Below are positions 14,833 to 42,664 of a stretch of 44,581 nucleotides of DNA, one piece after another. Source of the DNA: Gammaproteobacteria bacterium (lineage in GTDB: Bacteria > Pseudomonadota > Gammaproteobacteria > Pseudomonadales > Azotimanducaceae); NCBI GenBank assembly GCA_009846005.1, contig VXYL01000093.1:1-44581 (forward strand), given 5' to 3'. Position 1 is the stretch's first letter; each line of letters opens with the position of its first letter. A model generated the notes under the pieces. The model was not told where the DNA came from, searched no databases, and saw nothing but the letters and a program-made list of their open reading frames with translations. Position numbers and translations under genes: made by a program.

Positions 14833-15818
14833 GCAACCCTGCCATGGTGGCATACGACCGCGCGCCGTCGAAGAAACTTCGGCCCTCATTGACGACCGGG
14901 CCGATCCGGGCGTTGTTGTCACTGGGCGAACACAAAGTCGCCGGCTGCCATCTGGATGTCCATCTGCGGCGCAAAGACGAAGTGCACGTCTACTGCGGTC
15001 TCACCAGACCCGTCGTGGTGCGCCGCAAGTCCAACGGGGACGTGCGGGTCACCGCCGCGAAGAGCTACGCCCAACAGGTATGTTCGCGGGGCTTTTTCGG
15101 TCTATGGCAACAGGACCAGCTCGACGAGGCGGCGTTCGAGCAGCGCCTCGCCAAGTACTTAGAAAGCATCCACATCGAATGTCGATGGGTTCGCCGCGAA
15201 GGTTCCGTCCAAAGCGCGTGGTCGCGCATCGCCGAACCGTGGGTTCCGTTCGACCGGGAAGCGGTCCTCGAATACTCATCCACTAGCGAACGGAACCGCT
15301 CAAGGTGTTTCGACGCCGTCGCAGGAGCCCGCGAACGTGTCGATGCCCTGCGCGTGTCTCAGGGATGGGCACAACTCCCAAAGAGAGGCGGCGAAGTCGA
15401 TCAACTTGCCGTCGACCCGGATGGTCGTCTAGTCGTGATAGAACTCAAACACGCTTCCGCCTCAGGCGTGTACTACGCCCCGCTGCAGCTACTTCAATAC
15501 GTGTGGGAGTGACACGACGCCTTCTAGACAACAAGAACCTCCATGCAGGAGTTGCTTGACGCGCGTGTCGAACTACGACTCACGCCGCCCGATGTCGCCC
15601 GCATCGGCAGACGCATCCGGCCTGTCGTCGGCTTCGGGGTCGACGAACGCAGCTGCGAGGTCAAACTGCGCTATGCCAAGGTTCTGGCGTTGGTCAACGA
15701 ATACCTGCCGCCGGGGGCCGACCCCGTGGAGACTTGGTCGCTGCACCAGCTTCGCCCGGTTAACCTGACAGCCCAGACCAACAACGCAGAGCCGATTTTG
15801 AAGGGCGACAATTACTGA
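14829..15818 (+). pseudogene. Second PD-(D/E)XK-type gene coupled to the first, with two in-frame stops
   Basis: The ATG at 14829 overlaps the stop of the upstream gene as ATGA. A 227-codon frame runs to the TGA 15510-15512; the same frame also contains TAG at 15525-15527 and then reopens from 15543 as MQELLDARVELRLTPPDVAR, RIRPVVGFGVDERS, to 15818. Read through, it is about 330 codons. The segment EVDQLAVDPDGRLVVIELKH (about residues 190-210) has the D...E-x-K pattern of restriction-type nucleases. The family was not named. It could be two separate ORFs, but the second lacks a clear ribosome site and reads like the natural continuation (WEWHDA pattern). Confidence 0.5.
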
Positions 15819-15911
15819 CGGATTGGTGCGGTGGGCGAGACGTGCCAGCAGTTCTACCGGCGGTGGTCTGAATACTGGGAAGTCGCCTAGAGCAGGGTGG
15901 AACACTCGACG

Positions 15912-25000: not shown

Positions 25001-25388
25001 AGCCGCCCTGAACCGCGAACGTACCCAGATACCGCGTGGTACCCGAAAGCCGCACCAGGTCCAGGCGCCACCATTGAAATGCGTCACGCACTGGTGGGTA
25101 GAGGTCGGGGAAGTAGATGTGGTGCCAACCGACATCACGGAGAACCGGATCCCAGCTCCAAGGTCCCCCGCTGTACCTGCGCTGCCACCACTGGGATGCA
25201 TAAAGGACGAACGCGCGGATTTCCCACGGTCCTAGCCCATCTTTCCGACCGGCGTCAGCGAGCCGGTCCGTCAGCTGCGCAAACTCGCGCAGCGTGCATC
25301 GGTACGCGTAGAGCGGTCGGCCGTCGGGCTCGTCAAGCTCGCGGTCAGCGATGAAGCCGGTCAACCACTCGTGCACGCCCTCCCCCAT
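22071..25388 (-). CDS. YjiT/STY4851-like large protein, candidate DruH
   Basis: A 1105-residue protein with no catalytic motif I can identify. The N-terminus ELDEPDGRPLYAYRCTLREF (about residues 17-36) is characteristic of the STY4851/ECs_5259 (YjiT) family, as is the following WEIRAFVLYASQWWQRRY. The middle looks rich in beta-strands (many short hydrophobic strands with Gly/Asp turns) and the C-terminus is helical and charged. Such proteins are encoded directly upstream of DUF1998 helicases. Druantia type III consists of DruH and DruE, and I infer this is the DruH equivalent. The ATG at 25388 has GAGGAG eight bases upstream; a GTG at 25394 is less likely. Transcription starts in the 25.4-26.0 kb divergent region. 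Confidence 0.65.
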   Translation of the reverse strand: MGEGVHEWLTGFIADRELDEPDGRPLYAYRCTLREFAQLTDRLADAGRKDGLGPWEIRAFVLYASQWWQRRYSGGPWSWDPVLRDVGWHHIYFPDLYPPVRDAFQWWRLDLVRLSGTTRYLGTFAVQGGLPLLLVGEAGPVTAYLRAVVRHVARYRRFVDDPVELARDQQHLLRQRTLRREYVFRLAADLVDAVLDLREYVGQSEDLLAELDVRRPAWRESMPMDLDSQTARQLLEGLLREAKAGGSSGSDFGVKRFLVPTEAGWRLAARLQMPRSVERGELGGHLHVQETDLPPRMHVRTPGEGGRVVGLYGASGEHFHLMSGENNPSAAFWDAAAAEEFRLEFFSQDLVGEVKTRRGAALGELPWAFRADGEYALIGEGSVSDRAPELLVLLPEESEPSTGEALNATVAGRSLWRISEPAVVHTDSGNCVLNPASEQMVEEDYWLSGDRFYSFASTYPLFRGHPRLIVSKAEAPPRAVPLGEVNWRSTGSDWQSLPDGLGSWEVRHVHGGVLRHHGRLGLLPAALSLAVEPTSESEGHLVLGNGQGVGIACDANGTDIEIERAAEQVRMRLTAVDAFSPPADVSLRLRWPGARELRVWAPFPGAGARFLKNGDPLVDNTIAVDDLYGVRATAMSTDETQRFWIDGELKAEDAASVKRVAHFRLALRKAGVRHELALVEVDSTLRLLLGASVAHDARVSIRIVDAEHEYETLEVRRFAAVLKHDPGMESVLVQPPLEHPGVTTFEALPISRTDIEPITLTPVGPPTAPVCTRLPDELSSSDEPWLVVLRGEGGIRAEPTVVGGRSSRLDTDAALSFSEALALANATDRAKAVEAALARMVGEEDQCRQESDWAFVNEMLLCLEGVPSSASDLISALPRCPQALVRCLFRVDPGLRTRIWQLDDELPFSWLLIKRQIWRTEVRTAFDAMCRELRGVVEEPERLASEHVLAVLEEGAKHIGGLDTLVTDIGALLQGGVLSGVFVQMVREERDRRRQQLVNLLVSEDRWPRGYTRQDWSAVLSEPRLLKFGGWDPESDRWRQPTFDTPVAAAWCCFVSDPTSQTPFLVKRMRSHEPDWFDIAYRSAWYELANMQDNIQDRARKNRND

Positions 25389-25705
25389 AGACACGGCTCC
25401 TCAATGCTCGGCAACGACCCGCCAACTCGGCACATGCGTTGCACAAGTTTGTTCGACTCGTCGTAAGGACTCGCGTCCCTAATCGTCGCAAGCCTTCGAC
25501 CCCACCCGACCACGTCGTATTTCTGCGGATTGTACGCATGGTGTGATGATCGACACTGCAAGTCCCCATTTCTATATCAATTACGTATCTTCTGGCGGCA
25601 ATTTGCAGACGAAGCGTAAACATAGTATGTCTAATGCATGCCCGATCGTATCGGAACTTCATGCACGATCCGACTGCGGACCAACAATTGGCGCTGCTTC
25701 GGGCC

Positions 25706-25986: not shown

Positions 25987-28900
25987 ATGCCAACTGCGAC
26001 CTTACATTGCGAAACAGCGCCCAAGCTGAACTTCGCTTGCCACCAGAGCGCATTCCCTTACTTACGTGAGTTGCGCATCCAGAATGACTCCTCTAGCGAA
26101 GCCTTAGCGGACGTTGTGGTCACGCTCTCGTCGAACCCAGCGTTCCTCGAGAGCAAGTCTTGGCGCATTGAACGAATCGCTCCGGGTGGAGTTCAGTCAA
26201 TTACAGATCGGGAGATCGAGCTGGACGGGCAGTTCCTATTGGATCTCGCGGACTCCGTGCAAGGCACTACGCAGATCACTGTGGAACACCAGGGGTCAGT
26301 GGTTGGCGAGGAGACGAAACCCGTCGAGCTGCTTGCCTACAACGAGTGGGGTGGTGCGGGCTACATGCCGGAGCTGCTCGCCGCGTTCTCGAGGCCGAAC
26401 GATCCGGCGGTTGATAGGATCCTGCACGACGCGAGTGGCGCCTTGCGGAGGGCCGGGAAGCCCGATGGGATCGACGGATACAGATCGGGCAGTCGCCAGC
26501 GTGTGTGGGAGATTGCATCGGCCATCTACACGGCGATCTGCAATCTCGGCATCCGTTACTCGCTACCGCCTGCCAGCTTTGAACGTGATGGACAGAAGGT
26601 CCGGTTGCCAAGTCAGATACTCGACGGGCGGATCGCCACGTGCCTCGACCTGAGCCTGCTGTTCGCGTCAGCAATGGAGCAGGCGGGGCTGAACCCGGTT
26701 GTCGCGTTGCCCAAAGAACACGCCGTCGCCGGCGTTTGGCTTCAGCCAGAGGATCTTTCATCGATAGTTGTCGATGAAGCCGAAGTCCTGAGAAAACGAG
26801 CTGAACTCAACGAGTTGATTCTCGTGGAGACCACCTTGGTCACCAACCACCCGTCGCCGCCCTTCTCCCGCGCCGTGAAGGCCGCGTTGGATCCACTCTC
26901 GCTGGAACACGACGAAACATTCAGCGCCGCGATCGACATCCGTCGGGCCCGAGCCCACCGGATCACCCCTCTGGGTCTGACGTCTTCCGACACCGGGAGG
27001 GTCGCACCGTCAAGTGACGACACCCAGGTGGAGGTCGCTCTCGAAGAGGCTCCCGCGTTACCCGCCTTCGACAGCCCCTTGGTTGAAGATTCCGCGCCCG
27101 AGACGCCTGAGGGACGCCTTGAGCGCTGGCAGCGCAAGCTGCTGGACCTGTCTGCACGCAATCCCCTTCTCAACCACCGCGCCACCCGGACGAGTCTGAA
27201 CCTCATCTGTGCGGAGCCAGGCCGACTGGAGGACAAACTCGCAGAAGGCGCTCGAATCAGGATCCAATCAGTGCCAGAGCCAACGGGCCAAGCACAGGAC
27301 GAAGAGCTGCACCGGCGTCGGACGGGCGAGACCATCACCGAGGAGTATGCGAGGGATGCGCTGGAGAAAAACCAGATCCTCGTTGATCTAGATCGCGATG
27401 AGCTTTCCCGAAGGGCCGTGTCGATCTACCGCAGAACACAGACCGCGCTGCAGGAAGGCGGAGCGAACATCCTCTATGTGGCACTGGGCTTTCTTTCGTG
27501 GAAGCGCGACCAGAGGGACCAGCGAGCCTTTCGTGCGCCCCTGATCCTGCTACCCGTGACATTGACACGAGAATCCGTCCGGAGCGGCGTGAGAATGCTC
27601 GCGCATGACGACGAACCGAGATTCAACACGACGCTGCTGGAAATGCTGCGGAAGGATTTCGAGATCCACATAGCCGGACTCGACGGCACCTTGCCTGCGG
27701 ACGACAGTGGCGTCGACGTCGACGGCATTTGGGATCGGGTTCGCAAGGCCGTGAGGGACGCTCCCGGATTTGAGGTTGTCACCGATGTCGTCCTTGGCCA
27801 CTTCTCTTTCGCCAAGTACCTGATGTGGAAGGATCTGGTGGATCGTATCGACGCGCTGCGAGCAAGTCCCATCGTCAGCCACCTCATCGACACGCCCCGT
27901 GACCCCTACACCAGTGACATCGAATTCGTGCATCCCGATGACATTGACCGGCGATTCTCTCCCTCGGACCTTCTTGCCCCGCTGCCGGCCGATGCATCGC
28001 AAATGGCCGCAATCGCCACGGCCGACCGCGGCAAGGATTTCGTCGTCATCGGTCCCCCCGGCACGGGCAAGAGCCAGACCATCGCGAATCTCATCGCGCA
28101 TTTGCTCGGCAAGAGCAAGTCCATCCTGTTCGTGTCCGAGAAGACCGCTGCGCTGGAGGTCGTCTACCGCCGCCTGAAGGATGTCGGGCTTGGCGAGTTC
28201 GCGCTCGAACTCCACTCGAACAAGGCGCGCAAACTGGACGTGCTCAACCAGCTACGGGACGCCTGGGAGTATGGGCAGGACGCGGTCGGTGACAGGTGGA
28301 AGGCAGAGGCCGAGCGTCTCAAGCGTCTCCGCGACCAACTGAATCTCGTCGTGGACCGGCTCCACCTCCGAAGGCGCAATGGCATGACCGTATTCGAGGC
28401 TATGGGTGTGCGGATTCGCGATGAGACCCTGGTCAGGGGCGTCGCCTTGTCGTGGCCGTCAGCCGACCACCATGACGAAGCCCGACTGAATGCGATGCGC
28501 GAAGCCGCCGAGACGCTTGAGGTCCAGGCACGTGCCACCGACGACATCCGAGACAGCCCGTTCCGGTTGATCGCCACTGGCGATTGGTCGCCCAGCTGGG
28601 AGACGAAGTTGGTCCACAGCGCAGGCGACCTTTCCGGGGCCGCGACGACAGTCGAACGCGAGTGCGACGCAATGCTCGAGGCGATCGGCGCGCATGTTCC
28701 CGCTCGCAGCATGGAACGGCTGGACTCTCTCGTGGAACTCGCGGAATCGCTGCGTGCCTCTTGGCGCAAGCAGACCGCCTTCGCGCTCGAGCCAGATGGA
28801 CCTGAACACATCGAGGCGCTGAACGATGCCTCGATGCATCTGCACGCATACGCTACGGCCCAGACCCAACTGAGCTGCGGCTACGACCCGATGGCTTGGC

Positions 28901-31900
28901 GGGTGCTCGATGGAGATGACATCGAACGACGTTGGCGAGCGACCAGCGACTCCTGGTGGCTGAAGCGCATCCTCGAACGGCGTCGCATTACCCGCGAGAT
29001 GAAGGATGGCGGTGCCCAGGGAATACCCAATCCAGAACGCGATAGTCCCGCCCTGAAGACGTTGCGGGACCACGGGCAGGCGATCGACAAGCTCGCCAAG
29101 CCGCTGGCAAGCTTCAAGGAGTGGAGCGACCACTCCAGTGACCCAAACGCGCTGCTGGTCCTACGCGATGTCGGCCAGCAAGTTCGCAACGCCGTCGGTG
29201 GTCTGGTTGACGATACGACTGCGTTACTCGACACGCGCGGTGCGCTCAAGAAGCTAGTCGCCGACGGGAACGACCTCCTGGCACCGGACGCCGCCGTCGG
29301 CAGGCGAATTCATGCGTTCCTTGAGGCGATGGACCGGTTCCGTGAGAGCTGTGTGGCGTTCGGGGACCTTGCGGGTCAACCGACCCGAGACTACTTCACG
29401 CAAGTAGACGACGCCTTGGACGTGGTGCGCGAAACAACCACAGTCATCGCGGAACGGCGCCATGAGCTCAGCGCCTGGTGCGCCTGGCGCCGTCGGCGCA
29501 ACGAGGCCCTAGACCTAGACCTTGCGCCATTGATAGATGCGATCGAAGCGGGTGATGTCCCGGTCGATGAAATCGCGACCACGTTCCATGCCGCCTACTG
29601 CAGTTGGTGGTCAGGCGCCGTCATCGACGAGGACCATGTCCTACGTCGGTTCTCCACGCCAGAACACGTGGCAACCATCCACAACTTCCGCGAGCTCGAT
29701 GACCGTTATCAGCAACTCACGGCTGCCTATGTCGGTGCGCTACTTGCCGGTCGGCTTCCATACGCTGACAGCGTTACGAAAAAGTCGTCGTGGGGTGTAC
29801 TTCGTCGGGAATTGCAGAAGCAACGAAGACACAAACCTGTTCGCCAGCTAATGGCTGAGATTCCCGACGTCGTCACGACCTTGGCACCCTGTCTCATGAT
29901 GTCGCCCCTGTCGGTTGCCCAATACCTATCGGTAAAACAGGATCTGTTCGATGTTGTCATCTTTGACGAGGCGTCGCAGATCACGGTCTGGGATGCGGTC
30001 GGGTGCCTCGCGAGAGCGCGACAGGCGATTGTCGTGGGGGATCCCAAACAGATGCCCCCCACGAATTTTTTCGCGAGGGCAGATGACGATCCCGACGGCG
30101 ACATAGACGTGGAGGGCGACCTAGAGAGTATTCTCGATGAGCTGATCGGTGCGAGGATCCCGGAGCGCACCCTCAATCTCCACTATCGATCACGCAAAGA
30201 GAGCCTGATCGCGTTCTCGAACAGTCGCTACTACGAAAACCGACTGATCACCTTCCCCGCGCCAGCATTTCCCGACAACGCCGTTCAGTTGATTCGCCCG
30301 GAGGGCTTCTACGCCCGCGGAAAAGCGCGGCACAACGAGGGCGAAGCCCGAGCCATCGTTGCAGAGGTCGTACGTCGCCTCACGGACGACGACGCTGATG
30401 TGCGAAGGCAGACGATCGGTGTCGTGACGTTCAACTCCGAACAGCAAACACTGATTGAAGACCTGCTGGACAAGGAGCGTTCCGCGAACCCAGGAATCGA
30501 ATGGGCATTCGCGCAGGAAGGCCGTACGGAGCCCGTGTTCGTGAAGAACCTCGAAACGGTTCAAGGCGACGAGCGCGACGTCATCATGTTCAGCATCACC
30601 TACGCCCCTGACCAAGCCGATCATATGACCATGAACTTCGGTCCACTAAACCGCGACGGGGGAGAACGCCGCCTGAACGTCGCGATCACCCGAGCCAGAT
30701 CGGAAATGCTCGTGTTCTCGACATTGTCGCCGGACCGTATCGAACTCTCGCGCACCCAAGCGCGGGCGGTCGCTGACCTCAAGCACTTTCTTGAGTACGC
30801 CGAGCGTGGACCCACGGCGTTGGGCGCAGCTGTCCACGGACCCTTGGGGGATTTCGACTCGCCATTTGAGGCCGCAGTTGCACGCGCGTTGCGACAAAGA
30901 GGATGGGTCGTCCACCCACAGGTCGGGGTGTCCGCGTATCGGATTGATCTCGGCGTGGTTCACCCCGACGTGCCCGGAAGGTACTTGGCTGGAGTCGAAT
31001 GCGACGGAGCGATGTACCACAGCTCGGCGTTTGCGCGGGAGCGCGACAAGATCAGGCAGCAGGTGCTAGAGGGGCTTGGCTGGGTGCTGTACCGCATATG
31101 GTCAACCGACTGGTGGACGAACCAGACAAAGGCACTCTACACGTTGCACGAGGCACTGGTCGCTCTGCTGGTGGCCGATCAAGCCAAGCGTTCAGCGCAC
31201 GGGGCCGACTCGCCCTTAGGCGAAGATGACAATCCGGAGGCCAGCGAGGATGTCGAGCAGACCGGCGCAGACGAACCCCTCTCGCGTCAGGACAGGCCAG
31301 GCACACAAGTGAAGGACGCCACCAAGCAGCAAGTCGATGGCTCGGCACGACGTGAGGACGAACTGGACGCGACCACGGAACCGGACACTCATTACAGCCC
31401 CTCTCGGTGGGATCCCGCGCGCCACCGCCCCGCACCGGAGCTCTTTCACGCCGACGAATACAGTTCCCGATTGACCGAGATGATCGACCACGTCATCGAT
31501 TCCGAGGGCCCGATCCACGAGGACGTGCTGGTGCACCGTGTCGCACGGCACCACGGATTCGGACGGGCCGGCAATCAAATTCGCCGTCGAGTCATCGGAA
31601 TCGCCAAACGTCGACGTGGCAAGAGCAAGGAAGATGTCGGCCTGTTCTTCTGGCGCAAGGGCACGATCAAGGAACGGCAAGCGCCCGTGCGGTACTCAGG
31701 GCGCGATGCGCAGATGCGGAAGGTTGGGTACATCTGCGCAGACGAACTCCGCGCCATATCACGCATTCTGAACACGACAGACCCGATCACGCTTGCGAGA
31801 TCGCTGGGGGTCGAACGACTTCGTCAGCATGGTCGCGAACGACTCCAGCAGGTACTTGGGGTTGCCTGCCATAGCCCGGTGGGCGATCCCGGGGACGAAG

Positions 31901-31914
31901 GGCCAGCGGAGTAA
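25987..31914 (+). CDS. DUF4011-SF1 helicase-Vsr-like nuclease fusion (Hhe-like), 1975 aa
   Basis: A giant multidomain protein. The N-terminal domain has a transglutaminase-like segment (RIATCLDLSLLFASAMEQAG then KEHAVAGVWL, Cys about 217). DUF4011 follows (RLERWQRKLLDLSARNPLLN, about 377). The SF1 helicase is split: Walker A VVIGPPGTGKSQTIANL (about 685), then a long helical insert, DEAS box FDEASQITVWD (about 1325), VVGDPKQMPPTNFF, TVQGDERDVIMFS and LNVAITRARSEMLVF. A Vsr/DUF559-like nuclease domain comes next (SPFEAAVARALRQRGWVVHP, about 1625; GVECDGAMYH, about 1670), and a DUF3320-like C-terminus ends the protein. The domain order matches the Hhe defence protein. It heads an operon with a DUF262 gene 18 bp downstream. 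The frame is unbroken over 5.9 kb. Confidence 0.85.
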   Translation: MPTATLHCETAPKLNFACHQSAFPYLRELRIQNDSSSEALADVVVTLSSNPAFLESKSWRIERIAPGGVQSITDREIELDGQFLLDLADSVQGTTQITVEHQGSVVGEETKPVELLAYNEWGGAGYMPELLAAFSRPNDPAVDRILHDASGALRRAGKPDGIDGYRSGSRQRVWEIASAIYTAICNLGIRYSLPPASFERDGQKVRLPSQILDGRIATCLDLSLLFASAMEQAGLNPVVALPKEHAVAGVWLQPEDLSSIVVDEAEVLRKRAELNELILVETTLVTNHPSPPFSRAVKAALDPLSLEHDETFSAAIDIRRARAHRITPLGLTSSDTGRVAPSSDDTQVEVALEEAPALPAFDSPLVEDSAPETPEGRLERWQRKLLDLSARNPLLNHRATRTSLNLICAEPGRLEDKLAEGARIRIQSVPEPTGQAQDEELHRRRTGETITEEYARDALEKNQILVDLDRDELSRRAVSIYRRTQTALQEGGANILYVALGFLSWKRDQRDQRAFRAPLILLPVTLTRESVRSGVRMLAHDDEPRFNTTLLEMLRKDFEIHIAGLDGTLPADDSGVDVDGIWDRVRKAVRDAPGFEVVTDVVLGHFSFAKYLMWKDLVDRIDALRASPIVSHLIDTPRDPYTSDIEFVHPDDIDRRFSPSDLLAPLPADASQMAAIATADRGKDFVVIGPPGTGKSQTIANLIAHLLGKSKSILFVSEKTAALEVVYRRLKDVGLGEFALELHSNKARKLDVLNQLRDAWEYGQDAVGDRWKAEAERLKRLRDQLNLVVDRLHLRRRNGMTVFEAMGVRIRDETLVRGVALSWPSADHHDEARLNAMREAAETLEVQARATDDIRDSPFRLIATGDWSPSWETKLVHSAGDLSGAATTVERECDAMLEAIGAHVPARSMERLDSLVELAESLRASWRKQTAFALEPDGPEHIEALNDASMHLHAYATAQTQLSCGYDPMAWRVLDGDDIERRWRATSDSWWLKRILERRRITREMKDGGAQGIPNPERDSPALKTLRDHGQAIDKLAKPLASFKEWSDHSSDPNALLVLRDVGQQVRNAVGGLVDDTTALLDTRGALKKLVADGNDLLAPDAAVGRRIHAFLEAMDRFRESCVAFGDLAGQPTRDYFTQVDDALDVVRETTTVIAERRHELSAWCAWRRRRNEALDLDLAPLIDAIEAGDVPVDEIATTFHAAYCSWWSGAVIDEDHVLRRFSTPEHVATIHNFRELDDRYQQLTAAYVGALLAGRLPYADSVTKKSSWGVLRRELQKQRRHKPVRQLMAEIPDVVTTLAPCLMMSPLSVAQYLSVKQDLFDVVIFDEASQITVWDAVGCLARARQAIVVGDPKQMPPTNFFARADDDPDGDIDVEGDLESILDELIGARIPERTLNLHYRSRKESLIAFSNSRYYENRLITFPAPAFPDNAVQLIRPEGFYARGKARHNEGEARAIVAEVVRRLTDDDADVRRQTIGVVTFNSEQQTLIEDLLDKERSANPGIEWAFAQEGRTEPVFVKNLETVQGDERDVIMFSITYAPDQADHMTMNFGPLNRDGGERRLNVAITRARSEMLVFSTLSPDRIELSRTQARAVADLKHFLEYAERGPTALGAAVHGPLGDFDSPFEAAVARALRQRGWVVHPQVGVSAYRIDLGVVHPDVPGRYLAGVECDGAMYHSSAFARERDKIRQQVLEGLGWVLYRIWSTDWWTNQTKALYTLHEALVALLVADQAKRSAHGADSPLGEDDNPEASEDVEQTGADEPLSRQDRPGTQVKDATKQQVDGSARREDELDATTEPDTHYSPSRWDPARHRPAPELFHADEYSSRLTEMIDHVIDSEGPIHEDVLVHRVARHHGFGRAGNQIRRRVIGIAKRRRGKSKEDVGLFFWRKGTIKERQAPVRYSGRDAQMRKVGYICADELRAISRILNTTDPITLARSLGVERLRQHGRERLQQVLGVACHSPVGDPGDEGPAE

Positions 31915-31932
31915 CAAGAAGGAGATGCGAAC

Positions 31933-33882
31933 ATGAAGATCGGCGTGATCTTGGACCAGATCGACCTCGGCAGCATTGCGCTGCCCGAGTTCCAGCGAGG
32001 CTACGTCTGGAACCGTGATCAAGTACGGGGGCTGATGCAGTCCCTCTATCTCGGTCACCCAGTGGGCAGCCTGCTGGTTTGGGTGACGCCGACACAAGGG
32101 GCGAACGCGCGGGGCGACCAGAGCCTCCCTCCGGGGTTCGTGAAGCTGCTGCTCGACGGGCAGCAGCGCGTCACCTCCCTCTATGGGCTGGTCCGCGGCA
32201 AGGCACCCACTTTCTTCGAGGGTAATGAACGTGCGTTTACGGATCTGCGCTTCCACCTCGCCGACGAGGTGTTCTCCTTCTACCAGCCCCTGAAGATGCG
32301 CGACGACCCGTTGTGGGTCGATGTGACGGAGCTGCTGCGGGAGGGTGCCGGCGTAGTGGTGCAAAGATTCGTGACCGACTCGGCGTACCGGGATCGAATC
32401 GGCGATTTCCTGACCCGCCTCAACCGCATCGACGGCATCAAGGACACCGAACTGCACATCGAGGAGGTCACTGGCGGAGATAAGACGATCGATGTCGTCG
32501 TGGACATTTTCAACCGTGTGAACAGCGGCGGTACCAAGCTCTCGAAGGGCGATCTGGCCCTGGCGAAGATGTGCGCCGAGTGGCCGAACGCCCGGCAACG
32601 GCTAAACGGGGAACTGCGACGCTGGGCGGACGCTGGCTACTACTTCAGGCTCGAACTGCTGCTCCGCAGCGTCACGACTACATTGACCGGAGAGGCGATG
32701 TTCAGCGCCCTCGACGGTGTTGATAGCCCGGACTTCCAGAACGGCCTGAAGACAACGGTGCAGCATATCGACCGGCTGCTCAACCTGATTGGCTCCCGGC
32801 TCGGACTGGATCACGACCGTGTTCTCGGTGGGCGATATGCGCTTCCACTCATGTCGCGCTACCTGGCGCAACGTGGCGGCGCGGTGTCGGATCCAAGAGA
32901 GCGCGACAAGCTGCTCTATTGGTATGTGAACAGTTTTCTCTGGGGGCGTTACGCGGGATCCACGGAGTCGGTTCTGAACCAAGATCTTGGCGTCATCGAG
33001 GACATCGAGGGCGGACTCGACCGGCTTATCGAGGGCCTGCGCCGGGACCGCGGTGATCTGCGTCTTCACGCGGCGGACTTCCTAGGGTGGAGCCGGGGCG
33101 CACGGTTCTACCCGCTGCTCTACATGCTGACCCGGGCGTGGGGAGCGCTGGATTGGGAGACGGGCGTTGAGCTTAAGGGGCACCTACTTGGCAACCTCAG
33201 CAGCCTCGAACTGCACCACATCTTCCCGAAGGCCCGACTGTATGAGGCCGGGTACGAGCGGTCTCAGGTCAACGCCATAGCCAACTTCACCTTCCTGACC
33301 AAGGAGACGAATCTCAAGGTGTCTGCCAAGGACCCGGCAACGTATCTCGCCGCCTACTCGGAGAAGGATCCGGAGTTCCTCTCGTCCCATTGGATTCCGC
33401 TCGACCCCGAACTATGGCGAGTGGATCGGTACGAGGACTTCCTCGCCGCCCGGCGCGGCTTGCTCGCAGCCGCCGGCAACGACTTCCTTGAATCGCTACG
33501 GCGCGGGGAAGTGCCCGAAGATCGGGTGGAGATCCGCGTGGTCGAACGGGAACGGGCATCTGTGCGGGGGGGCATTGGCGGCGAGGAAGAGGAAGACCTG
33601 CTCATCGAGGTGAACCAGTGGGTCGTGAGCCAAGGTCTGCCGGAGGGCGAGTTCTTGTTCGAACTGGCAGACCCCGACACCGGCGAAGAGTTTGGCGTCC
33701 TAGATCTGGCATGGCCAGACGGCATGCAGGCGGGATTGAGCGTCCCGGTGGCGCTGTTGCTGAACGAGCCGGAGGAGACGGAAGCGGCCGCCAATCGGGC
33801 CGGGTACCGCTACTTCACCGATGTCGATTCGTTCAAGAGCTACGTGGATCGCGAAGTCCTCGTCGTCGAAGATGCGGCATGA
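31933..33882 (+). CDS. DUF262/HNH (GmrSD-like) protein
   Basis: A 649-residue protein. The DUF262 N-terminus has LPEFQRGYVWNRDQVRGLMQ (about residues 17-36) and LLDGQQRVTSLYGL (about 73-86), the ParB/Srx-like signature with likely NTP hydrolysis. An HNH-like nuclease motif follows in LELHHIFPKARLYEAGYERS and VNAIANFTFLTKETNLKV (about 425-460), as in DUF1524/DUF262 fusions of the GmrSD type IV restriction family. The C-terminal roughly 130 residues are an extra acidic domain not recognised. AAGGAG lies upstream of the ATG at 31933, and the gene follows the helicase-nuclease with an 18-bp gap. It may cleave modified DNA; target specificity is not visible. Confidence 0.85.
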   Translation: MKIGVILDQIDLGSIALPEFQRGYVWNRDQVRGLMQSLYLGHPVGSLLVWVTPTQGANARGDQSLPPGFVKLLLDGQQRVTSLYGLVRGKAPTFFEGNERAFTDLRFHLADEVFSFYQPLKMRDDPLWVDVTELLREGAGVVVQRFVTDSAYRDRIGDFLTRLNRIDGIKDTELHIEEVTGGDKTIDVVVDIFNRVNSGGTKLSKGDLALAKMCAEWPNARQRLNGELRRWADAGYYFRLELLLRSVTTTLTGEAMFSALDGVDSPDFQNGLKTTVQHIDRLLNLIGSRLGLDHDRVLGGRYALPLMSRYLAQRGGAVSDPRERDKLLYWYVNSFLWGRYAGSTESVLNQDLGVIEDIEGGLDRLIEGLRRDRGDLRLHAADFLGWSRGARFYPLLYMLTRAWGALDWETGVELKGHLLGNLSSLELHHIFPKARLYEAGYERSQVNAIANFTFLTKETNLKVSAKDPATYLAAYSEKDPEFLSSHWIPLDPELWRVDRYEDFLAARRGLLAAAGNDFLESLRRGEVPEDRVEIRVVERERASVRGGIGGEEEEDLLIEVNQWVVSQGLPEGEFLFELADPDTGEEFGVLDLAWPDGMQAGLSVPVALLLNEPEETEAAANRAGYRYFTDVDSFKSYVDREVLVVEDAA

Positions 33883-35667: not shown

Positions 35668-36843
35668 TTGCAGCACCTACGACTTACCGCCGCCTTCGTC
35701 GCCACCGTCAAGCCCACCCGCACCGTCAAGACCTACGGCGATGGGCGCGGCGGGTACGGCCTGACGCTTTCCGTGCAGCCGAGCGGATCGAAGCAGTGGT
35801 ACCAGCGCGTCTACGTCAACCGCCGGCCCGTCAATCTCGGCCTCGGCGGCTATCCCGTCGTCTCTCTCGCCGACGCCCGACGCACCGCCCTCGCCAACGC
35901 CAGGCTCGTTCGCTCGGGACACGATCCGAGGCGCGTCTCCGGGACGATCCCGACCGTCGATGAAATGCTCGACGCCGTCATCGAACGCGACGCCGCCACC
36001 TGGCGCGACCCCGAACGCACGGCCCGCGAGTGGCGAACTGCTCTGCACACCCACGCAGGTCCCTTGATGAACAAGCCGGTCGACGAAGTCACCAGCGCCG
36101 ACTGCATCGACGTCCTCTCCGCCCTCTGGCATTCCAAGCGCGAGACAGGACTACGCGTCAGGCACCGTCTCGCCGCCGTCTTCAAGTTCGCCCTTGCCAA
36201 GGGACACCGCACAGACAATCCCGTCGACGCCGCCAAGGCGGCCCTTCCCAACCGCCGAGGCGACGCCCAGCGCAAACAACGGCACCCGTCGCTGCCTTAC
36301 CGGCAGGTTGCGCAGGCCCTCGCCGCGGTCGACCGCGCCGACATCTGGACCGGCACCAAACTGGCGTTCCGCTTCCTCGTCCTCACGGCCACGCGAAGCG
36401 GCGAGGTGCGCGGCGCTAACTGGTCCGAGATCAACATCGCCGACGCGCTCTGGACCATTCCTGGCTCGCGCATGAAAGCAGGCACCGAGCACCGCGTACC
36501 CCTCAGCACCTCGGCCATGGCCGTCCTAGCCTCGGCCAAGCGGCTCACCACCAACGAGCTCCTGTTCCCCACGGTCAGGGGCAAACGCATGATGGACAGC
36601 CCCATCAGCAAGCCATTGCGCGACCTTGGCATCGCCGCGGTCCCCCACGGCTTCCGATCGTCCTTCCGCGACTGGGCGGCCGAACGCACGTCCGTCCCGA
36701 CCGCCGTCGTCGAAGCGGCACTCGCGCACCGCGTCTCAAACAACGTGGAAGCAGCCTACTTCCGCAGCGACCTCCTCGAGAAGCGCCGCGAGCTCATGCA
36801 GCAGTGGGCAGACTTCCTCGAACCGCCCGGTCCGTCGACTTAG
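35668..36843 (+). CDS. P4-type tyrosine recombinase (integrase) 1
   Basis: A 391-residue integrase. The N-terminal DUF4102 arm-binding domain reads TVKTYGDGRGGYGLTLSVQP then VNLGLGGYPVVSLADAR. The core-binding domain covers about 95-200, and the catalytic domain shows ATRSGEVRGANW (first Arg), HGFRSSFRDWA (His-x-x-Arg), AHRVSNNVEAAYFRSD (His and the nucleophile Tyr). All catalytic residues are present. A TTG at 35668 is taken as start because it aligns with the ATG start of the neighbouring paralogue; no ATG fits. It should integrate or excise a genomic island. The next integrase begins four bases after its stop. Confidence 0.85.
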   Translation: MQHLRLTAAFVATVKPTRTVKTYGDGRGGYGLTLSVQPSGSKQWYQRVYVNRRPVNLGLGGYPVVSLADARRTALANARLVRSGHDPRRVSGTIPTVDEMLDAVIERDAATWRDPERTAREWRTALHTHAGPLMNKPVDEVTSADCIDVLSALWHSKRETGLRVRHRLAAVFKFALAKGHRTDNPVDAAKAALPNRRGDAQRKQRHPSLPYRQVAQALAAVDRADIWTGTKLAFRFLVLTATRSGEVRGANWSEINIADALWTIPGSRMKAGTEHRVPLSTSAMAVLASAKRLTTNELLFPTVRGKRMMDSPISKPLRDLGIAAVPHGFRSSFRDWAAERTSVPTAVVEAALAHRVSNNVEAAYFRSDLLEKRRELMQQWADFLEPPGPST

Positions 36844-36847
36844 CGCC

Positions 36848-38011
36848 ATGCCACTGAAGCTCACCGAGACCTTCGTCCAGCGGGTCAAACCCGACTCCCG
36901 CGCCAGGACCTACGGCGACGGGCGCGGCGGCCACGGCCTGACGCTCCACGTCCAGACCAACGGCGCCAAGTGGTGGTACCAGCGCCTCCGCATCCACGGT
37001 CAACCAGCGAATGTCGGACTCGGCGGCTATCCCCTGGTCACCCTTCCCGAAGCCCGGCACGCCGCGCTGCGCAACGCGCAAGTCGCCCAGGACGGGGGCG
37101 ACCCGAGGCCCAGGAAGCGTCCCGTTCCGTCCGTTGCCGACACGCTCGCCGCCGTCATCGAGAGGGACGCACCGACCTGGCGCCATCCGGACCGCACCGC
37201 CAAGAACTGGCGCAACGTCCTCCGCCGCCACGCCAGCGACGTCCTCGCACTCCGCGTTGACGAGGTCACGAGCGCCGACTGCATCGCGGTCCTCGCCCCG
37301 CTTTGGAACACCAAGCGCGAGACCGGCCGCAAGACCAAGCGGCGGCTCGCCGCAATCTTCAACCTCGCCATCGCCGAAGGCCACCGGACCGACAATCCCA
37401 TCGATCAGGCCAGCGCCGCCCTACCCAACCGCCGCGGCGACCAGCAGCGCATCCGCCGGCAGGCCGCGCTGCCCTACCACCAAGTCGCCGATGCCCTATC
37501 CGTCGTCGCGGGCACGAACGCGTGGCTCGGAACCAAGCTCGCGTTCCGTTTTCTGGTGCTCACGGCCGCTCGAAGCGGCGAGGTGCGCGGCGCTACCTGG
37601 GCCGAGGTCGATACCGACGCCGCGCTCTGGACGATACCGGCCGCACGTATGAAAGCAGGCGACGAACACAGGGTCCCGCTCAGCACCGCCGCCCTCGCGG
37701 CCCTCTCCGAGGCGCAGGCCATCGCGGGCGACAACGGCCTCCTTTTTCCGAGCGCAAGGGGCAAGCCCATGAGCGACGTCACGCTGAGCAAACTGCTCCG
37801 GGAGAATCACGTGCCCGCCGTACCCCACGGATTCCGGTCCTCATTCCGCGACTGGGCCGCCGAACAGACCGCATTCCCCCGCGCTGTCATGGAGGCTGCC
37901 CTAGCCCACAAGGTCGCCGACGAGGTTGAGGCGGCCTATTTCCGAAGCGACCTCCTCGAAAAACGCAGCGAGCTGATGCAGCAGTGGGCAGACTATCTGT
38001 CTTCCGACTAG
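36848..38011 (+). CDS. P4-type tyrosine recombinase (integrase) 2
   Basis: A 387-residue paralogue of the preceding integrase, with clear residue-by-residue similarity over the whole length: DSRARTYGDGRGGHGLTLHV, VGLGGYPLVTLPEARHAALR, AARSGEVRGATW (Arg), HGFRSSFRDWAAEQT (His-x-x-Arg), AHKVADEVEAAYFRSD (His, Tyr). The catalytic set is complete. The ATG at 36848 aligns with the family start. It forms an operon with integrase 1 and lies 190 bp upstream of the lexA-like gene on the same strand. Tandem duplication followed by divergence, or accretion of two related islands, could explain the pair. Confidence 0.87.
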   Translation: MPLKLTETFVQRVKPDSRARTYGDGRGGHGLTLHVQTNGAKWWYQRLRIHGQPANVGLGGYPLVTLPEARHAALRNAQVAQDGGDPRPRKRPVPSVADTLAAVIERDAPTWRHPDRTAKNWRNVLRRHASDVLALRVDEVTSADCIAVLAPLWNTKRETGRKTKRRLAAIFNLAIAEGHRTDNPIDQASAALPNRRGDQQRIRRQAALPYHQVADALSVVAGTNAWLGTKLAFRFLVLTAARSGEVRGATWAEVDTDAALWTIPAARMKAGDEHRVPLSTAALAALSEAQAIAGDNGLLFPSARGKPMSDVTLSKLLRENHVPAVPHGFRSSFRDWAAEQTAFPRAVMEAALAHKVADEVEAAYFRSDLLEKRSELMQQWADYLSSD

Positions 38012-38160: not shown

Positions 38161-38190
38161 TTGAAATAGTGCACATAAATGCAGTATATA
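38161..38190 (+). promoter_or_regulatory. Sigma-70 promoter of the lexA-like/RM operon
   Basis: TTGAAA (38161-38166) and TATATA (38185-38190) with an 18-bp spacer, in an AT-rich patch just upstream of the ATG at 38199. The leader would be very short. Confidence 0.6.
38166..38187. promoter_or_regulatory. 22-bp dyad in the promoter, candidate LexA-type operator
   Basis: The site follows the pattern ATAnTGCAnnTAnnTGCAnTAT, symmetric at 16 of 22 positions. It fills the spacer and -10 of the promoter, where a repressor would block transcription. It is not the enterobacterial CTGT-N8-ACAG box, consistent with the altered recognition helix of the repressor encoded just downstream. Binding is inferred. 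Confidence 0.5.
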
Positions 38191-38198
38191 GCGCCATC

Positions 38199-38816
38199 AT
38201 GGAACCACTGACACCCCGACAGCGCCAAGTCCTTGACTTTGTTGAGAGGTGCTGCTCGGAGACCGGCTCTCCGCCAACCTTGGACGAGATCAGCGGCCAC
38301 TTTAGCTTCAAGAGCAGCAACTCCGCGCGCCAGCATCTGCGCCTCATCGAACGCAAGGGGTACCTCAGGCTCCGCCCCGGCCGTGCACGTGGAATCCGTT
38401 TGACTCCAACGTGCGCCCCTCTGCAGCCCGTACCGTTGGTGCCTCTAGTGGGTAGGATCGCCGCTGGCGACCCAATTGCCGCGACCCAAGACATCGAAGC
38501 CATGATCCCCATTCCCGGCGAAATATGGCGGGGGGATCACCTCTTTGCGCTACGCGTTCGTGGTGACAGCATGACCGGGGTCGGCATTTTCGATGGCGAC
38601 ATTGCCGTCGTGAACGCACAGCCAGTCGCCGAGAACGGCACGATCGCCGCCGTTGTGATCGGTGAGGACGTCACGTTGAAGCGATTCTTCCGTTCTGACC
38701 AGGGCATCCTCCTTCGCGCGGCAAACGACGACCATTCAGACTTGGCCTTCGACCCTCACGATTCGGACAACATACGCATCGCGGGCGTTCTAGTTGGCAC
38801 CCTGCGGACCTTCTAG
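38199..38816 (+). CDS. lexA: LexA-type self-cleaving transcriptional repressor
   Basis: A 205-residue LexA homologue. The winged helix covers LTPRQRQVLDFVERCCSETG and SPPTLDEISGHF, with recognition region SSNSARQHLRLIERKG and the conserved RARGIRL. The S24 domain has the cleavage site IAAGDP (Ala89-Gly90), catalytic Ser124 (RVRGDSMTG) and Lys161 (VTLKRFF). The spacing among these (35 and 72 residues) equals that of E. coli LexA, so RecA-stimulated self-cleavage is expected. The start is the ATG at 38199, because MEPLTPRQ matches the family N-terminus; an upstream ATG would add an unrelated tail. It ends two bases before the methyltransferase ATG. It may be the cell's LexA or a second, island-specific copy. 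Confidence 0.85.
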   Translation: MEPLTPRQRQVLDFVERCCSETGSPPTLDEISGHFSFKSSNSARQHLRLIERKGYLRLRPGRARGIRLTPTCAPLQPVPLVPLVGRIAAGDPIAATQDIEAMIPIPGEIWRGDHLFALRVRGDSMTGVGIFDGDIAVVNAQPVAENGTIAAVVIGEDVTLKRFFRSDQGILLRAANDDHSDLAFDPHDSDNIRIAGVLVGTLRTF

Positions 38817-38818
38817 CG

Positions 38819-41800
38819 ATGCCACCTGCTGCAACAACCCCGATCACCGACCTCCAACGCGAAGCGAGCGCCTTTGGCTGCCCGGAGTTGATCTCGCTCC
38901 AAGGACCACAAACAGATGCACATCTCGAATACCTCGACCTAACTGGCTCGCAAAGCGAGGCGCCGCTCCTCCCGCATGCCGTCGCAGAGTTCCAAGGCCG
39001 CCCCCTCCTCTATCTTCTCGACGACCTCGAACGTACTTTGGAACCGAAGTCAGCCGACCAGCGTGCACACGAACTAGGTCAACTCCTCGCCAACAGAAGC
39101 GAGCATGCTGTACTCGGCCTCGTCCGACCCGGCGAACTAACCCTCTATCCAGTCAACCTCGATCGTACCGTACTCGACCGCGCACCCGTCATTACCATAT
39201 CGCGCGACACTCCAGACGCCTCGTTCTTCTTCCAGAGCCTCGCAGCCGGCTCGTTCTCCCTTGACGGACAACCGCAAGCGCCCGATTACGTCTTCGATGA
39301 GATTCACACCTTGCTCGCGTCTGCCAATGACGATCTGGCCGCCAAAATGCCGCCTCTCGAGATACTCTCCGTCACCGGCAGGGCCCTCTTTTTCCGCTTT
39401 CTTCATGATCGCAAAATCGTCTTACCTAGCGAATTAACCGAGATCTGCCCACCCGCTAACGATTTGAAGGACGTATTCTCAGACTCTGAGCGGGCCGCCG
39501 CGACCTCATGCTGGCTAGATGAGACGTTCAACGGTGACTTCCTCCCTCTCGTTGACGGCCTCCACCCATCACTACCGTCGCGCGAACGGCAATCCGCATA
39601 TGCGGAGTTCTACCGCGAAGCCCACGCCAAGACCGAAGGCAAGGTGTTTCTTCACCTCGAAGCGATCCTACGCGGATGGAAGCACGTCGAAGGATCCGGT
39701 TATCAAACGACAATCGACTGGGACGACTTCAACTTCGCGCACATCCCAATTGGGGTTCTAAGTCAAATCTATGAGACGTTCAGCCGGCGCTGGGACGATG
39801 CCCACTCCGACGACACAAGTATCCGTTACACTCCGAAGAACATCGCGCGCCTACTCGTGGATGAGGCACTAGCCGGTTTGGAACAACCACAGGACGCTGT
39901 GGTCCTTGATCCCGCGTGCGGCGGTGGCGTTTTCCTCGTCTTGGCCTTCCGTCAACTGTTGCGCTTGCATTGGGAGAAAACCGGCCGCCGCCCGACAACT
40001 CGCCTCATTCACCGAGTCCTCTACAATCAGCTGCGGGGCTTTGATGTTAGCGAATCCGCGCTTCGACTCGCAGCACTTGCTCTATACATCACATCCATCG
40101 AGCTAAACGGAACGAAACGGCCACCAAAGAGCTTGAAGTTTCCCGATGCGCTCAAAGATCGGGTTCTCTTCAACTTCGGCCCCTCCGACGACCAGGAGCG
40201 TCGCCAAGGGTTCGTTCTCGGCAGCCTTGATTCAACCGTACCCAAGTCCTTCGACCGACAGTTCGACATCGTCATCGGCAACCCACCCTGGACCCGTGTT
40301 CGGTCAAGGCGAACCGGCAACGATGACCCCACCGAGCGACGAAGGCGCAATGCCTCAATCAACGCAGAGTTCTCAGTCATCACACGGCGCGCGTTACGCA
40401 AACTCGGTGCTCCCGGCATCGACGCGAGTGCGTACAGAAACCCAGACAACAACCCCGACCTCCCTTTCTTGTGGCGTTCTACGGAGTGGGCCAAACCGGG
40501 CGGCACCATCGCCATGGCGCTTCCCGGCCGGATAATCCTGAAACAGAGTCCGGCTGGTGAGCGGGCGCGTGTGGCACTGTTCCGCAGCTTAACGGTGACC
40601 GGGATTCTCAACGGCTCAGACCTTGAGAAGACAGCCGTCTGGCCCAATATGGACCTTCCTTTCATGCTGTTTTTCGCCCGCAACACTGTCCCGCCGGCGA
40701 ACCACCAGTTCTCTTTTCTCACGCCGTTCCGAGAGAACGCCTTGTGTCAGCGCTCGGAATTCCGCTTGGACTACCGTTCCGCCCAGGCCATTTCAGTCGA
40801 CTCCGTGACGGCGAAGCCCTGGTTGCTCAAGTCTCTCAGCCTAGGCAGCATCCTCGACGTAGAGGTCATCGACAAAATCTCCGACCGCCAGTTCCCGCCC
40901 GTTTCCGACGTTTGGGCCAATCTCGTAGCGGGCGAAGGCTACAATGTCTCGGCCAGGCTAGCGCAGAGGCCCGCCGACCACCTAGTAGATCTTCCCGATT
41001 TCAAGCCTCCAGCTCGCGGCTACGACGTCCGCGCCAAGGACCTCCCGACCTGGGGTCAGAATCATAATCGCTCTACAGCACACTTCCCGCGCCGCGCCGC
41101 GCTCTACGACCCGCCACTCGTCATATTGCCCCAGACTCCCGGCGAAACGAGAAGCCAACCCAAAGCGTTTCTCTTCGAAGATGACCGCGTGGTCTTCTCG
41201 AAGAGCTTCTACGGTTACTCCACCGCAGGTCACGAGCATTCAAAGAATCTAGCTCGCCTCCTGTACTTGATCGTTCACAGCCAACTCTGGGCTCATCATT
41301 GTCTAACCCACAGCTCGCGGATCGGCGCGAGCTACCGCACCATTCTGAAAGAAGACATCCAACGTTTCCCTTTCCCAGATCCCTCAACATTGGCCGCGGC
41401 CCAGTGGGGCCGCATCGAACAGCTGGCCGACAGTTTGCGCCACGACGATCAACGTCCCTTCCACGACATCGACCAACTCGTATCCGAGGTCTACGGTCTA
41501 AGCTCGAACGACATGGCCATAATCGAGGACACGGTACGCTACGGTGCCCCGTTTCGATCAGCCCGGCTTCCTGCCGAGAAACAACCGGGTCAAACCGATG
41601 TCGAAGCATTCTGCCGGTACCTGGTGGAAATGACCCAGCCTTTCGTCGACGATTCGACCGCGCTCCGCGCGTTCCCCGTTTCCACCGAAAGCACCGGGTA
41701 CTCCTCACCCTGGCGCTTCATTGGCTTGTCCACCCAAACCGAGCCGATCGAAATCTCCCCTGCGTTTCTTTCCGCCATTGTGCGCGAGGGAGACAGCTTG

Positions 41801-41938
41801 TCCGCCAGCCGCGTAGTCATGCTGCTGCCTGGAGGAGGTTTACTCATCGGCCTCTTGAACCAGCAACGGTTCTGGAGCCAAACCCGCGCTCGACTGTGCG
41901 CCCTACATGTCATACGTCGACATCTGAGCGCCTTCTAG
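38819..41938 (+). CDS. N6-adenine DNA methyltransferase, type IIG/Eco57I-like
   Basis: A 1039-residue protein. The SAM-binding motif I is VVLDPACGGGVFLVLAFR (about residue 360-377) and motif IV is IGNPPW (485-490), the N6-adenine amino-methyltransferase signature. YTPKNIARLLVDEAL precedes motif I, as in Eco57I-type enzymes. The N-terminal 300 residues and the C-terminal TRD-like half (SRIGASYRTILKEDIQRFPF then PDP) match large type IIG-like or type I-like enzymes. No PD-(D/E)XK site was evident in the N-terminus, and a separate nuclease-like gene follows. It should methylate the host DNA for a restriction system. The ATG lies two bases after the lexA-like stop, so translation is coupled. Confidence 0.85.
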   Translation: MPPAATTPITDLQREASAFGCPELISLQGPQTDAHLEYLDLTGSQSEAPLLPHAVAEFQGRPLLYLLDDLERTLEPKSADQRAHELGQLLANRSEHAVLGLVRPGELTLYPVNLDRTVLDRAPVITISRDTPDASFFFQSLAAGSFSLDGQPQAPDYVFDEIHTLLASANDDLAAKMPPLEILSVTGRALFFRFLHDRKIVLPSELTEICPPANDLKDVFSDSERAAATSCWLDETFNGDFLPLVDGLHPSLPSRERQSAYAEFYREAHAKTEGKVFLHLEAILRGWKHVEGSGYQTTIDWDDFNFAHIPIGVLSQIYETFSRRWDDAHSDDTSIRYTPKNIARLLVDEALAGLEQPQDAVVLDPACGGGVFLVLAFRQLLRLHWEKTGRRPTTRLIHRVLYNQLRGFDVSESALRLAALALYITSIELNGTKRPPKSLKFPDALKDRVLFNFGPSDDQERRQGFVLGSLDSTVPKSFDRQFDIVIGNPPWTRVRSRRTGNDDPTERRRRNASINAEFSVITRRALRKLGAPGIDASAYRNPDNNPDLPFLWRSTEWAKPGGTIAMALPGRIILKQSPAGERARVALFRSLTVTGILNGSDLEKTAVWPNMDLPFMLFFARNTVPPANHQFSFLTPFRENALCQRSEFRLDYRSAQAISVDSVTAKPWLLKSLSLGSILDVEVIDKISDRQFPPVSDVWANLVAGEGYNVSARLAQRPADHLVDLPDFKPPARGYDVRAKDLPTWGQNHNRSTAHFPRRAALYDPPLVILPQTPGETRSQPKAFLFEDDRVVFSKSFYGYSTAGHEHSKNLARLLYLIVHSQLWAHHCLTHSSRIGASYRTILKEDIQRFPFPDPSTLAAAQWGRIEQLADSLRHDDQRPFHDIDQLVSEVYGLSSNDMAIIEDTVRYGAPFRSARLPAEKQPGQTDVEAFCRYLVEMTQPFVDDSTALRAFPVSTESTGYSSPWRFIGLSTQTEPIEISPAFLSAIVREGDSLSASRVVMLLPGGGLLIGLLNQQRFWSQTRARLCALHVIRRHLSAF

Positions 41939-41944
41939 CCAGCA

Positions 41945-42664
41945 ATGCAGAATGCCGGATTCTTCGCCGCTGGCGTAGACTACCAATTACCGCATCCAAC
42001 CATCGCTACAGCGGTTCTCCTCGTTGTCCACAATGCGGTTCGCCGTGCCTTTGCATTTCTTCGCGACACAGAGTTTCCACTCGGCACCGCTCACGAGGAT
42101 CAGATCACCCGGCAACTATATTGGATACTTGAGGACCATCTTCGACAGACAGGCGAGGTGCCGGGATTCGATGAACGAGTGTTCCGGAAGGTCTGGCGCG
42201 GCCCAGAGGTCACCAACTTCGATGGCAAACATCCCGCCAAAAAACCTGACCTCGTATTCGAACTCGTCCGTGACGAAACGCTCGTGCTGTCCAGTCAAGA
42301 CGCCCTGTTCGTCGAGTGCAAACTAGTAGGCACCACTCATCCGGTTGGTAGCGTCTACTGCAACACCGGCATCTCTCGTTTCATAGGCGGCGACTACGCC
42401 TGGGCGATGCAGGAGGCCATGATGCTCGGCTACGCACGCTCTGGATATTCGATACTCGACAAGCTAGAACCCATTCTGACCACAGAGCCCTATCATGACC
42501 GGCTTGGACAACCGACCGCCACTGCACCTATCCCCGCAAGCGTCTCTGACTCCTGGGCCGAGGAGCTTCGCGCTAGTTCGCATAACCGCGATTTCAACTG
42601 GCCCCACGGACAAGGGCCAGCCGGAAAGATCCGCCTTTTCCACTCTTGGCACGACTGCTCATAG
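41945..42664 (+). CDS. Putative restriction endonuclease, PD-(D/E)XK type
   Basis: A 239-residue protein. KKPDLVFELVRD (about residues 98-110) followed by DALFVECKLVG (about 119-129) gives the PD...E-x-K active site of restriction-type nucleases. The flanking HEDQITRQLYWILEDHL and SRFIGGDYAWAMQEAMMLGY are consistent with a nuclease fold of this class, though no named family was recognised. It starts six bases after the methyltransferase stop, so it is the third gene of the lexA-methyltransferase operon and the obvious restriction partner. An alternative is an accessory nuclease with the methyltransferase acting alone. Confidence 0.7.
   Translation: MQNAGFFAAGVDYQLPHPTIATAVLLVVHNAVRRAFAFLRDTEFPLGTAHEDQITRQLYWILEDHLRQTGEVPGFDERVFRKVWRGPEVTNFDGKHPAKKPDLVFELVRDETLVLSSQDALFVECKLVGTTHPVGSVYCNTGISRFIGGDYAWAMQEAMMLGYARSGYSILDKLEPILTTEPYHDRLGQPTATAPIPASVSDSWAEELRASSHNRDFNWPHGQGPAGKIRLFHSWHDCS

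Follow-up and report, generated by a model that had tools for sequence, protein, structure and literature searches.

In the window, that is, the whole 44,581-nucleotide stretch of DNA that was analyzed, a gene for a LexA paralogue is followed on the same strand by genes for a large N6-adenine DNA methyltransferase and a putative PD-(D/E)XK nuclease (Table 1). The lexA stop codon (TAG, 38814-38816) lies 2 bp before the methyltransferase ATG (38819), and the methyltransferase gene ends 6 bp before the nuclease ATG (41945), so that the ORF coordinates reproduce the gene spacing of the original prediction. The two tandem integrases that had been noted beside the operon were recognized by Pfam, and the second of them ends 187 bp before the lexA start. 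A promoter scan placed a single promoter-like site inside the coding genes (40509-40536), which is at chance level.

Table 1. Features of the LexA-headed operon and the adjoining integrase genes (window coordinates)
Feature	Coordinates	Strand	Remarks
Tyrosine integrase 1	35668..36843	+	Arm-DNA-bind_3, Phage_int_M, Phage_integrase (Pfam)
Tyrosine integrase 2, in tandem with integrase 1	36848..38011	+	Pfam
Promoter-like hexamers: TTGAAA 38161-38166, 18-bp spacer, TATATA 38185-38190	38161..38190	+	9/12 consensus matches
Candidate operator TAGTGCACATAAATGCAGTATA, degenerate LexA-type dyad, GTGC-N8-GCAG core	38167..38188		In the spacer, overlaps the -10 hexamer
lexA paralogue, 205 aa	38199..38816	+	A89-G90 and S124/K161 intact; operon-LexA clade
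N6-adenine DNA methyltransferase, 1039 aa	38819..41938	+	N6_Mtase core
Putative PD-(D/E)XK nuclease, 239 aa	41945..42664	+	D102 ... E124-C-K126

The window is a defense island. DruE and DruH of Druantia III are encoded at 17162-25391 on the reverse strand (PADLOC). A 1975-aa DUF4011/AAA/MTES_1575 protein, matched in PADLOC by PDC-S37 and then by Hhe, is encoded together with a following GmrSD_N protein (PADLOC HEC-05) at 25987-33879 on the forward strand, and the region 13823-17093, also on the forward strand, encodes two PD-(D/E)XK proteins, of which one matches REase-ARP and PDDEXK_13 and the other PDDEXK_4 and PADLOC PDC-S26.

The first protein of the operon had been described as a complete LexA with Ala89-Gly90, Ser124, and Lys161 in the spacing of E. 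coli LexA, and this description held. It scored 181.7 bits against the TIGR00498 equivalog cut-off of 110.95 (NCBIfam), matched the Pfam families PF01726 (LexA_DNA_bind; 76.7 bits) and PF00717 (Peptidase_S24; 95.4 bits), and had A89, G90, S124, and K161 invariant across an alignment of 10 LexAs. RecA stimulates the self-cleavage of LexA, and the Ala-Gly bond, the serine, and the lysine were kept in all six of the operon LexAs described below. In the recognition helix, residues of which take part in base contacts, these six proteins have an arginine at the position of the first glutamate of an EEH stretch in two gammaproteobacterial host LexAs.

The second protein matched N6_Mtase (PF02384) above the Pfam cut-off, and the DPxCGxG and NPPW motifs were invariant in five of five aligned methyltransferases, which bears out its identification as a large N6-adenine methyltransferase. 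The same core is common to the Type IIG and BREX PglX-type N6-adenine methyltransferases (PADLOC, NCBIfam). However, all NCBIfam matches and nearly all of the PADLOC matches shown were confined around the core, the NCBIfam scores were far under their cut-offs, and the window operon consists of three genes only. The C-terminal part of the methyltransferase was weakly similar to the end of the BseCI methylase (M.BseCI; whole-sequence E value of 9.5e-6 across profile positions 748-882, although no individual stretch passed by itself), and it possibly serves the protein as its own target-recognition region.

The prediction that the third protein is a PD-(D/E)XK nuclease stood with respect to the motif, but a family match was not found in Pfam, PADLOC, NCBIfam, or PHROGs. 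D102, E124, and K126 were invariant in all 11 aligned relatives, and the same motif was present at the locus designated L128 below. This D...ExK pattern is as in PD-(D/E)XK nucleases, and the protein is considered a putative nuclease. Nuclease profiles compared with solved structures gave only matches at E values of 0.5 or worse. AlphaFold2 models of the nuclease (4 sequences; mean pLDDT, 39.4) and of the methyltransferase (5 sequences; 46.5) were poor, and Foldseek returned no match to either at E ≤ 0.001.

In keeping with the original prediction, the adjacency of lexA and the methyltransferase gene is not unique to this contig. A lexA gene lies directly before the same methyltransferase gene in five other genomes, giving six LexA-headed loci (the window, L033, L034, L035, L036, and L128). 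The nuclease gene then follows in four of the five other loci, and the contig of the fifth ends there. Identity to the window methyltransferase was 77% in a gammaproteobacterial MAG, 69% in a Nitrospinae MAG, 59% in Bradyrhizobium pachyrhizi, and 45% in a deltaproteobacterial MAG. Four of the six cases were found with exact peptide patterns taken from the window methyltransferase, a scan of species genomes that favors close relatives; it yielded 16 stretches, of which 4 were relatives, all with lexA directly upstream and 3 with the nuclease next, the fourth contig ending at that point. A search at E ≤ 1e-30 of 297 genomes from the phylum to which the deltaproteobacterial MAG belongs, this MAG included, turned up the sixth LexA-headed locus, which is complete, in one genome, G1180. 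With surroundings viewed in G262, G666, G1048, G1180, and G1325 only, no further LexA-headed case emerged from the class of the window (369 genomes at E ≤ 0.001, of which 49 had a match, mostly limited to the shared methylase core among those listed) or, at E ≤ 1e-30, from the order of Bradyrhizobium (297 genomes), the relatives of the window genome (58 genomes), and the Nitrospinae phylum (18 genomes). Scans of viral_contigs with the methyltransferase and with its alignment confirmed no relative, and searches with the window LexA returned 203 plasmid and 98 phage records, each with less than 60% identity (40 and 15 rows viewed).

Within the window's genus, only 1 of 15 other genomes had a match to the methyltransferase (E ≤ 1e-30), at 30% identity. 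This distribution is as expected of an accessory module. From these comparisons, LexA-headed loci are rare and accessory and occur in distantly related groups. Their presence in unrelated bacteria suggests a defense that would be turned up when the DNA of the cell is damaged, for example, by a phage.

Exactly two PF01726 matches were present in each of the six carrier genomes. The possibility that the window LexA is the only LexA of its genome was rejected, as a second, chromosomal LexA is present. In a tree of 54 LexAs, which included five of the six operon LexAs and omitted that of L128 as well as six LexA hits shorter than 180 aa, the operon LexAs formed one clade (support, 100/96; present in every one of 200 bootstrap trees) that is separate from the host LexAs and the sampled second LexAs; the deep branches of this tree are long, which leaves the exact root unsure and weakens the deep nodes. 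Pairwise identities of the operon LexAs correlated with those of the methyltransferases (r = 0.965, 15 pairs) and of the nucleases (r = 0.973, 10 pairs), and those of the three proteins tracked each other overall (r of 0.965 to 0.979), the pairs not being independent. The corresponding value for host LexAs versus methyltransferases was 0.62 (10 pairs). Thus, the operon LexAs diverge in step with both enzymes. The host LexAs of the window and L033 are 70% alike, and the operons of this pair may therefore have been inherited in common rather than transferred; the other operon pairs point to joint transfer.

As a yardstick, second LexAs were sampled from other genomes. More than one PF01726 match was found in 25 of 398 genomes, the window's own included, although in one of these (G365) both matches overlap within one gene. 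Of 24 genomes with multiple matches, 18 were sampled; they supplied 20 regions, and the LexA gene was resolved in 14 of these. One downstream neighbor, not always the adjacent gene, was scanned from each of 10 regions: four were IMS-family proteins, one was a DNA polymerase III alpha subunit, one was a TIR protein adjoining a LexA hit that lacks the S24 part, and four had no match. No methyltransferase was among these 10 neighbors. At four loci (L115, L116, L121, and L122), a second lexA is followed by a gene for a 347- to 422-aa protein without a Pfam match, perhaps another LexA-headed cassette.

A strong promoter carrying a 22-bp dyad had been predicted just upstream of lexA. Promoter-like hexamers are present there, but their strength was overstated: a stricter consensus scan did not report the site. 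The dyad is likewise real, but it is imperfect (8 of 11 pairs) and lies one base downstream of the position first given (38166-38187). Hexamers whose distance from the ATG is almost that of the TTGAAA-18-TATATA in the window were found in L033 (TTGATT-18-TATAGA), L034 (TTGCAC-17-TATATT), and L035 (TTGAAC-17-TATCAT), with 8 or 9 of 12 consensus matches, and in these four of the six LexA-headed loci the dyad falls within the -35/-10 spacer. In L036 and L128, the boxes lie 22 to 60 bp before the lexA start, and promoter hexamers were not placed at the box. The -10 hexamer of the window ends 8 bases before the lexA ATG (8 or 9 bases in L033 to L035), and the operon lexA may be leaderless.

L035 and L036 each carry a perfect CTGT-N8-ACAG, which was reached by 1 of 2,000 mononucleotide shuffles in each case, and L128 carries two tandem boxes of this type with one mismatch each. 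The boxes of the window, L033, and L034 score only 5 of 8 against this pattern, which 1,759 to 1,826 of 2,000 shuffles equal; because this score is at shuffle level, the case for an operator in these three loci rests on position and conservation. The window and L033 have an identical 22 bp (TAGTGCACATAAATGCAGTATA) in otherwise diverged upstream DNA, and the longest shared run in 300 mononucleotide shuffles was 10. Recurrence of this gene order in other genomes, together with the identity of the 22-bp operator in L033, marks the arrangement as more than a product of chance. Up to this point, the account of the genes, their catalytic residues and order, the co-divergence, the distinct LexA clade, and the operator position is drawn from sequence.

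The window genome has CTGTATATAATCGCAG at its own host lexA and two perfect CTGT-N8-ACAG boxes at an ImuA-like gene (the names ImuA and ImuB are presumptive, given to unlabeled genes from their sequence), and the host box therefore seems to be CTGT-N8-ACAG, unlike the GTGC-N8-GCAG of the operon. Exact CTGT-N8-ACAG was not enriched in this genome (22 places versus 29 for the reversed control), and among the genes beside the 15 of 22 exact boxes that were viewed (L054 to L068), only a tandem pair in L057/L058 seemed SOS-like. The Bradyrhizobium host lexA has no CTGT-N8-ACAG within 300 bp and has GAACACATATCGAAC at -181 (GAAC-N7-GAAC); the alphaproteobacterial LexA box is of the GTTC type. The supposition that the operon repressor is distinct from the chromosomal LexA thus agrees both with its separate place in the tree and with an operator unlike the boxes that precede host lexA in the window genome and in Bradyrhizobium.

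These results also bear on whether the operon LexA acts globally as a second SOS repressor, its place beside a restriction operon being incidental. Such a role would fit a protein that passes the LexA equivalog cut-off and the finding of additional PF01726 matches in other genomes. However, the window operator occurs at a single place in its own genome within 3 mismatches, and both the conserved adjacency and the co-divergence with the enzymes speak for a local role, which makes a global function extremely unlikely.

More distant relatives of the methyltransferase carry other genes at the position of lexA. Seven of 42 plasmid records with a methyltransferase match were viewed, the plasmid gene table being incomplete, and in all seven a nuclease-like gene (21 to 34% identical) follows the methyltransferase gene. 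The gene before it gave weak HTH hits below the cut-off in L038, L039, and L042, a MerR hit just below the cut-off in L044, and no match in L040 and L041; L043 has no same-strand gene directly before the methyltransferase. In relatives from genomes, the position is taken by a MerR gene above the cut-off (L071), a gene without a match (L072), or a 629-aa frame (L129). In L130 (450-4402, reverse strand), a CI-type repressor with an S24 domain precedes a methyltransferase 26% identical to that of L036. The first part of the L130 methyltransferase is in another frame beside an A-run, and the next gene is cut by the contig end. The regulator position is thus, as far as family assignments go, variable (LexA, CI-type, XRE-like, MerR, and unclassified), with self-cleaving repressors from two families.

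Small HTH or MerR genes at the same position in several distant methyltransferase-nuclease pairs are what would be expected of a general controller position, and the window operator overlaps the promoter. Both observations would be accommodated if LexA were a timing controller resembling a C protein, which sets a safe level of the operon and delays the nuclease in a new cell, RecA-driven cleavage being incidental. However, a plain autorepressor would have no need of the S24 self-cleavage residues that all six operon LexAs keep, and a CI-type S24 repressor occupies this position in one distant relative. Thus, control of timing alone seems unlikely.

We consider it probable that a dedicated, RecA-cleavable LexA controls a two-gene restriction system, the latter term being used on the grounds of gene content and motifs. 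In this proposal, the three genes would be on one transcript with the repressor first, and the LexA paralogue would repress itself, the methyltransferase, and the nuclease from one operator set in the promoter. RecA filaments could form on single-stranded DNA from DNA damage, from degraded or replicating phage, or from incoming conjugative DNA, upon which LexA would cleave itself at Ala89-Gly90 as the SOS LexA does, and methylase and nuclease would rise together. LexA made from the same transcript would restore repression once the signal ends. Repression, cleavage, restriction, induction, and the resulting physiology are what we infer; induction by damage would follow from RecA-stimulated self-cleavage as known for the LexA family.

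The weakest step is that both enzymes would be repressed, a risk of self-restriction that is met only by assuming leakiness. With both enzymes held down, the genome would have to be methylated either through leaky expression in the resting state or ahead of cutting upon induction. Leaky expression at rest probably keeps the genome methylated, and upon arrival in a new host the operon would at first be fully on, so that methylation could precede its being held down. A methylase and a nuclease behind one repressor, with tandem integrases just upstream, might also be expected of an SOS-induced module for self-destruction or release of the element, in which the genome at rest would carry little methylation and derepression would either kill the cell or favor excision by the neighboring integrases. 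However, the methylase precedes the nuclease in the gene order, which favors protection, and no integrase was recognized beside the triplet in the ORF lists around L033 to L036, inspected by eye; such a module is highly improbable.

Restriction systems are usually seen as standing defenses timed by C proteins. If RecA-gated control is true, a restriction operon would be induced by a signal arising from phage DNA and its cleavage, and restriction would be linked to the SOS response without the host LexA. This raises the puzzle of how a cell would withstand a joint rise of methylase and nuclease from rest. Furthermore, the variable regulator position offers a natural series for comparing modes of control over one kind of enzyme pair. 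No LexA-headed restriction operon was found in the open-license literature among the matches listed, as far as their titles and the starts of their abstracts go. The new part, if real, is that a damage-responsive controller of a new kind governs a restriction-type operon.

Several known systems are similar in part. In the available portion of PMC3901139, LexA2 of Pseudomonas putida directly controls lexA2-imuA-imuB-imuC, which is induced by mitomycin C and has a regulon apart from that of LexA1. That operon is like the one described here in having a second LexA at its head, but its cargo consists of mutagenesis genes, and the second LexAs with IMS-family neighbors sampled here fall outside the operon-LexA clade. 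C proteins (Type II) and RptR (Type I) are encoded by small regulator genes that adjoin a restriction system and repress or time it; RptR represses a defense island with a Type I system, and its response to phage is called unresolved (PMC12255303). In the part of that source available, no self-cleavage of the S24 kind is ascribed to either. A phage Type IIL-like system, as far as its accessible description goes, has a comparable neighborhood of a LexA-like repressor, a restriction gene, and an integrase, but there the system is a single protein, and regulation is not claimed.

Further parallels in control are CapW/BrxR, CapH+CapP, and CapK+CapS, which the available text of PMC13373217 presents as damage-responsive controllers of immune operons. 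They are alike in that an immune operon begins with a repressor gene and repression is relieved by DNA damage or single-stranded DNA, and they differ in that control there involves a protease, a WYL-domain factor, or a kinase (PMC13373217, as above). As far as their accessible descriptions go, no system among these known parallels is a methyltransferase-nuclease operon under LexA control. None of the protease, WYL, or kinase-STAS regulator domains was detected by Pfam in the three operon proteins. Here, a LexA stands before a methyltransferase-nuclease pair and should cleave itself on RecA filaments without a partner gene. We lean slightly toward a broader interpretation, in which LexA has been domesticated to serve a mobile restriction system privately, through an operator that sets it apart from the host SOS regulon, and restriction thereby becomes RecA-gated and inducible. 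S24 self-cleaving repressors would then have come to control this enzyme family on two or more occasions (the LexA type in six genomes and the CI type in one distant relative), and, next to the protease, WYL-domain, and kinase controllers, the operon LexA would add a fourth type of immune controller that responds to damage, and it would do so with no need of a partner gene.
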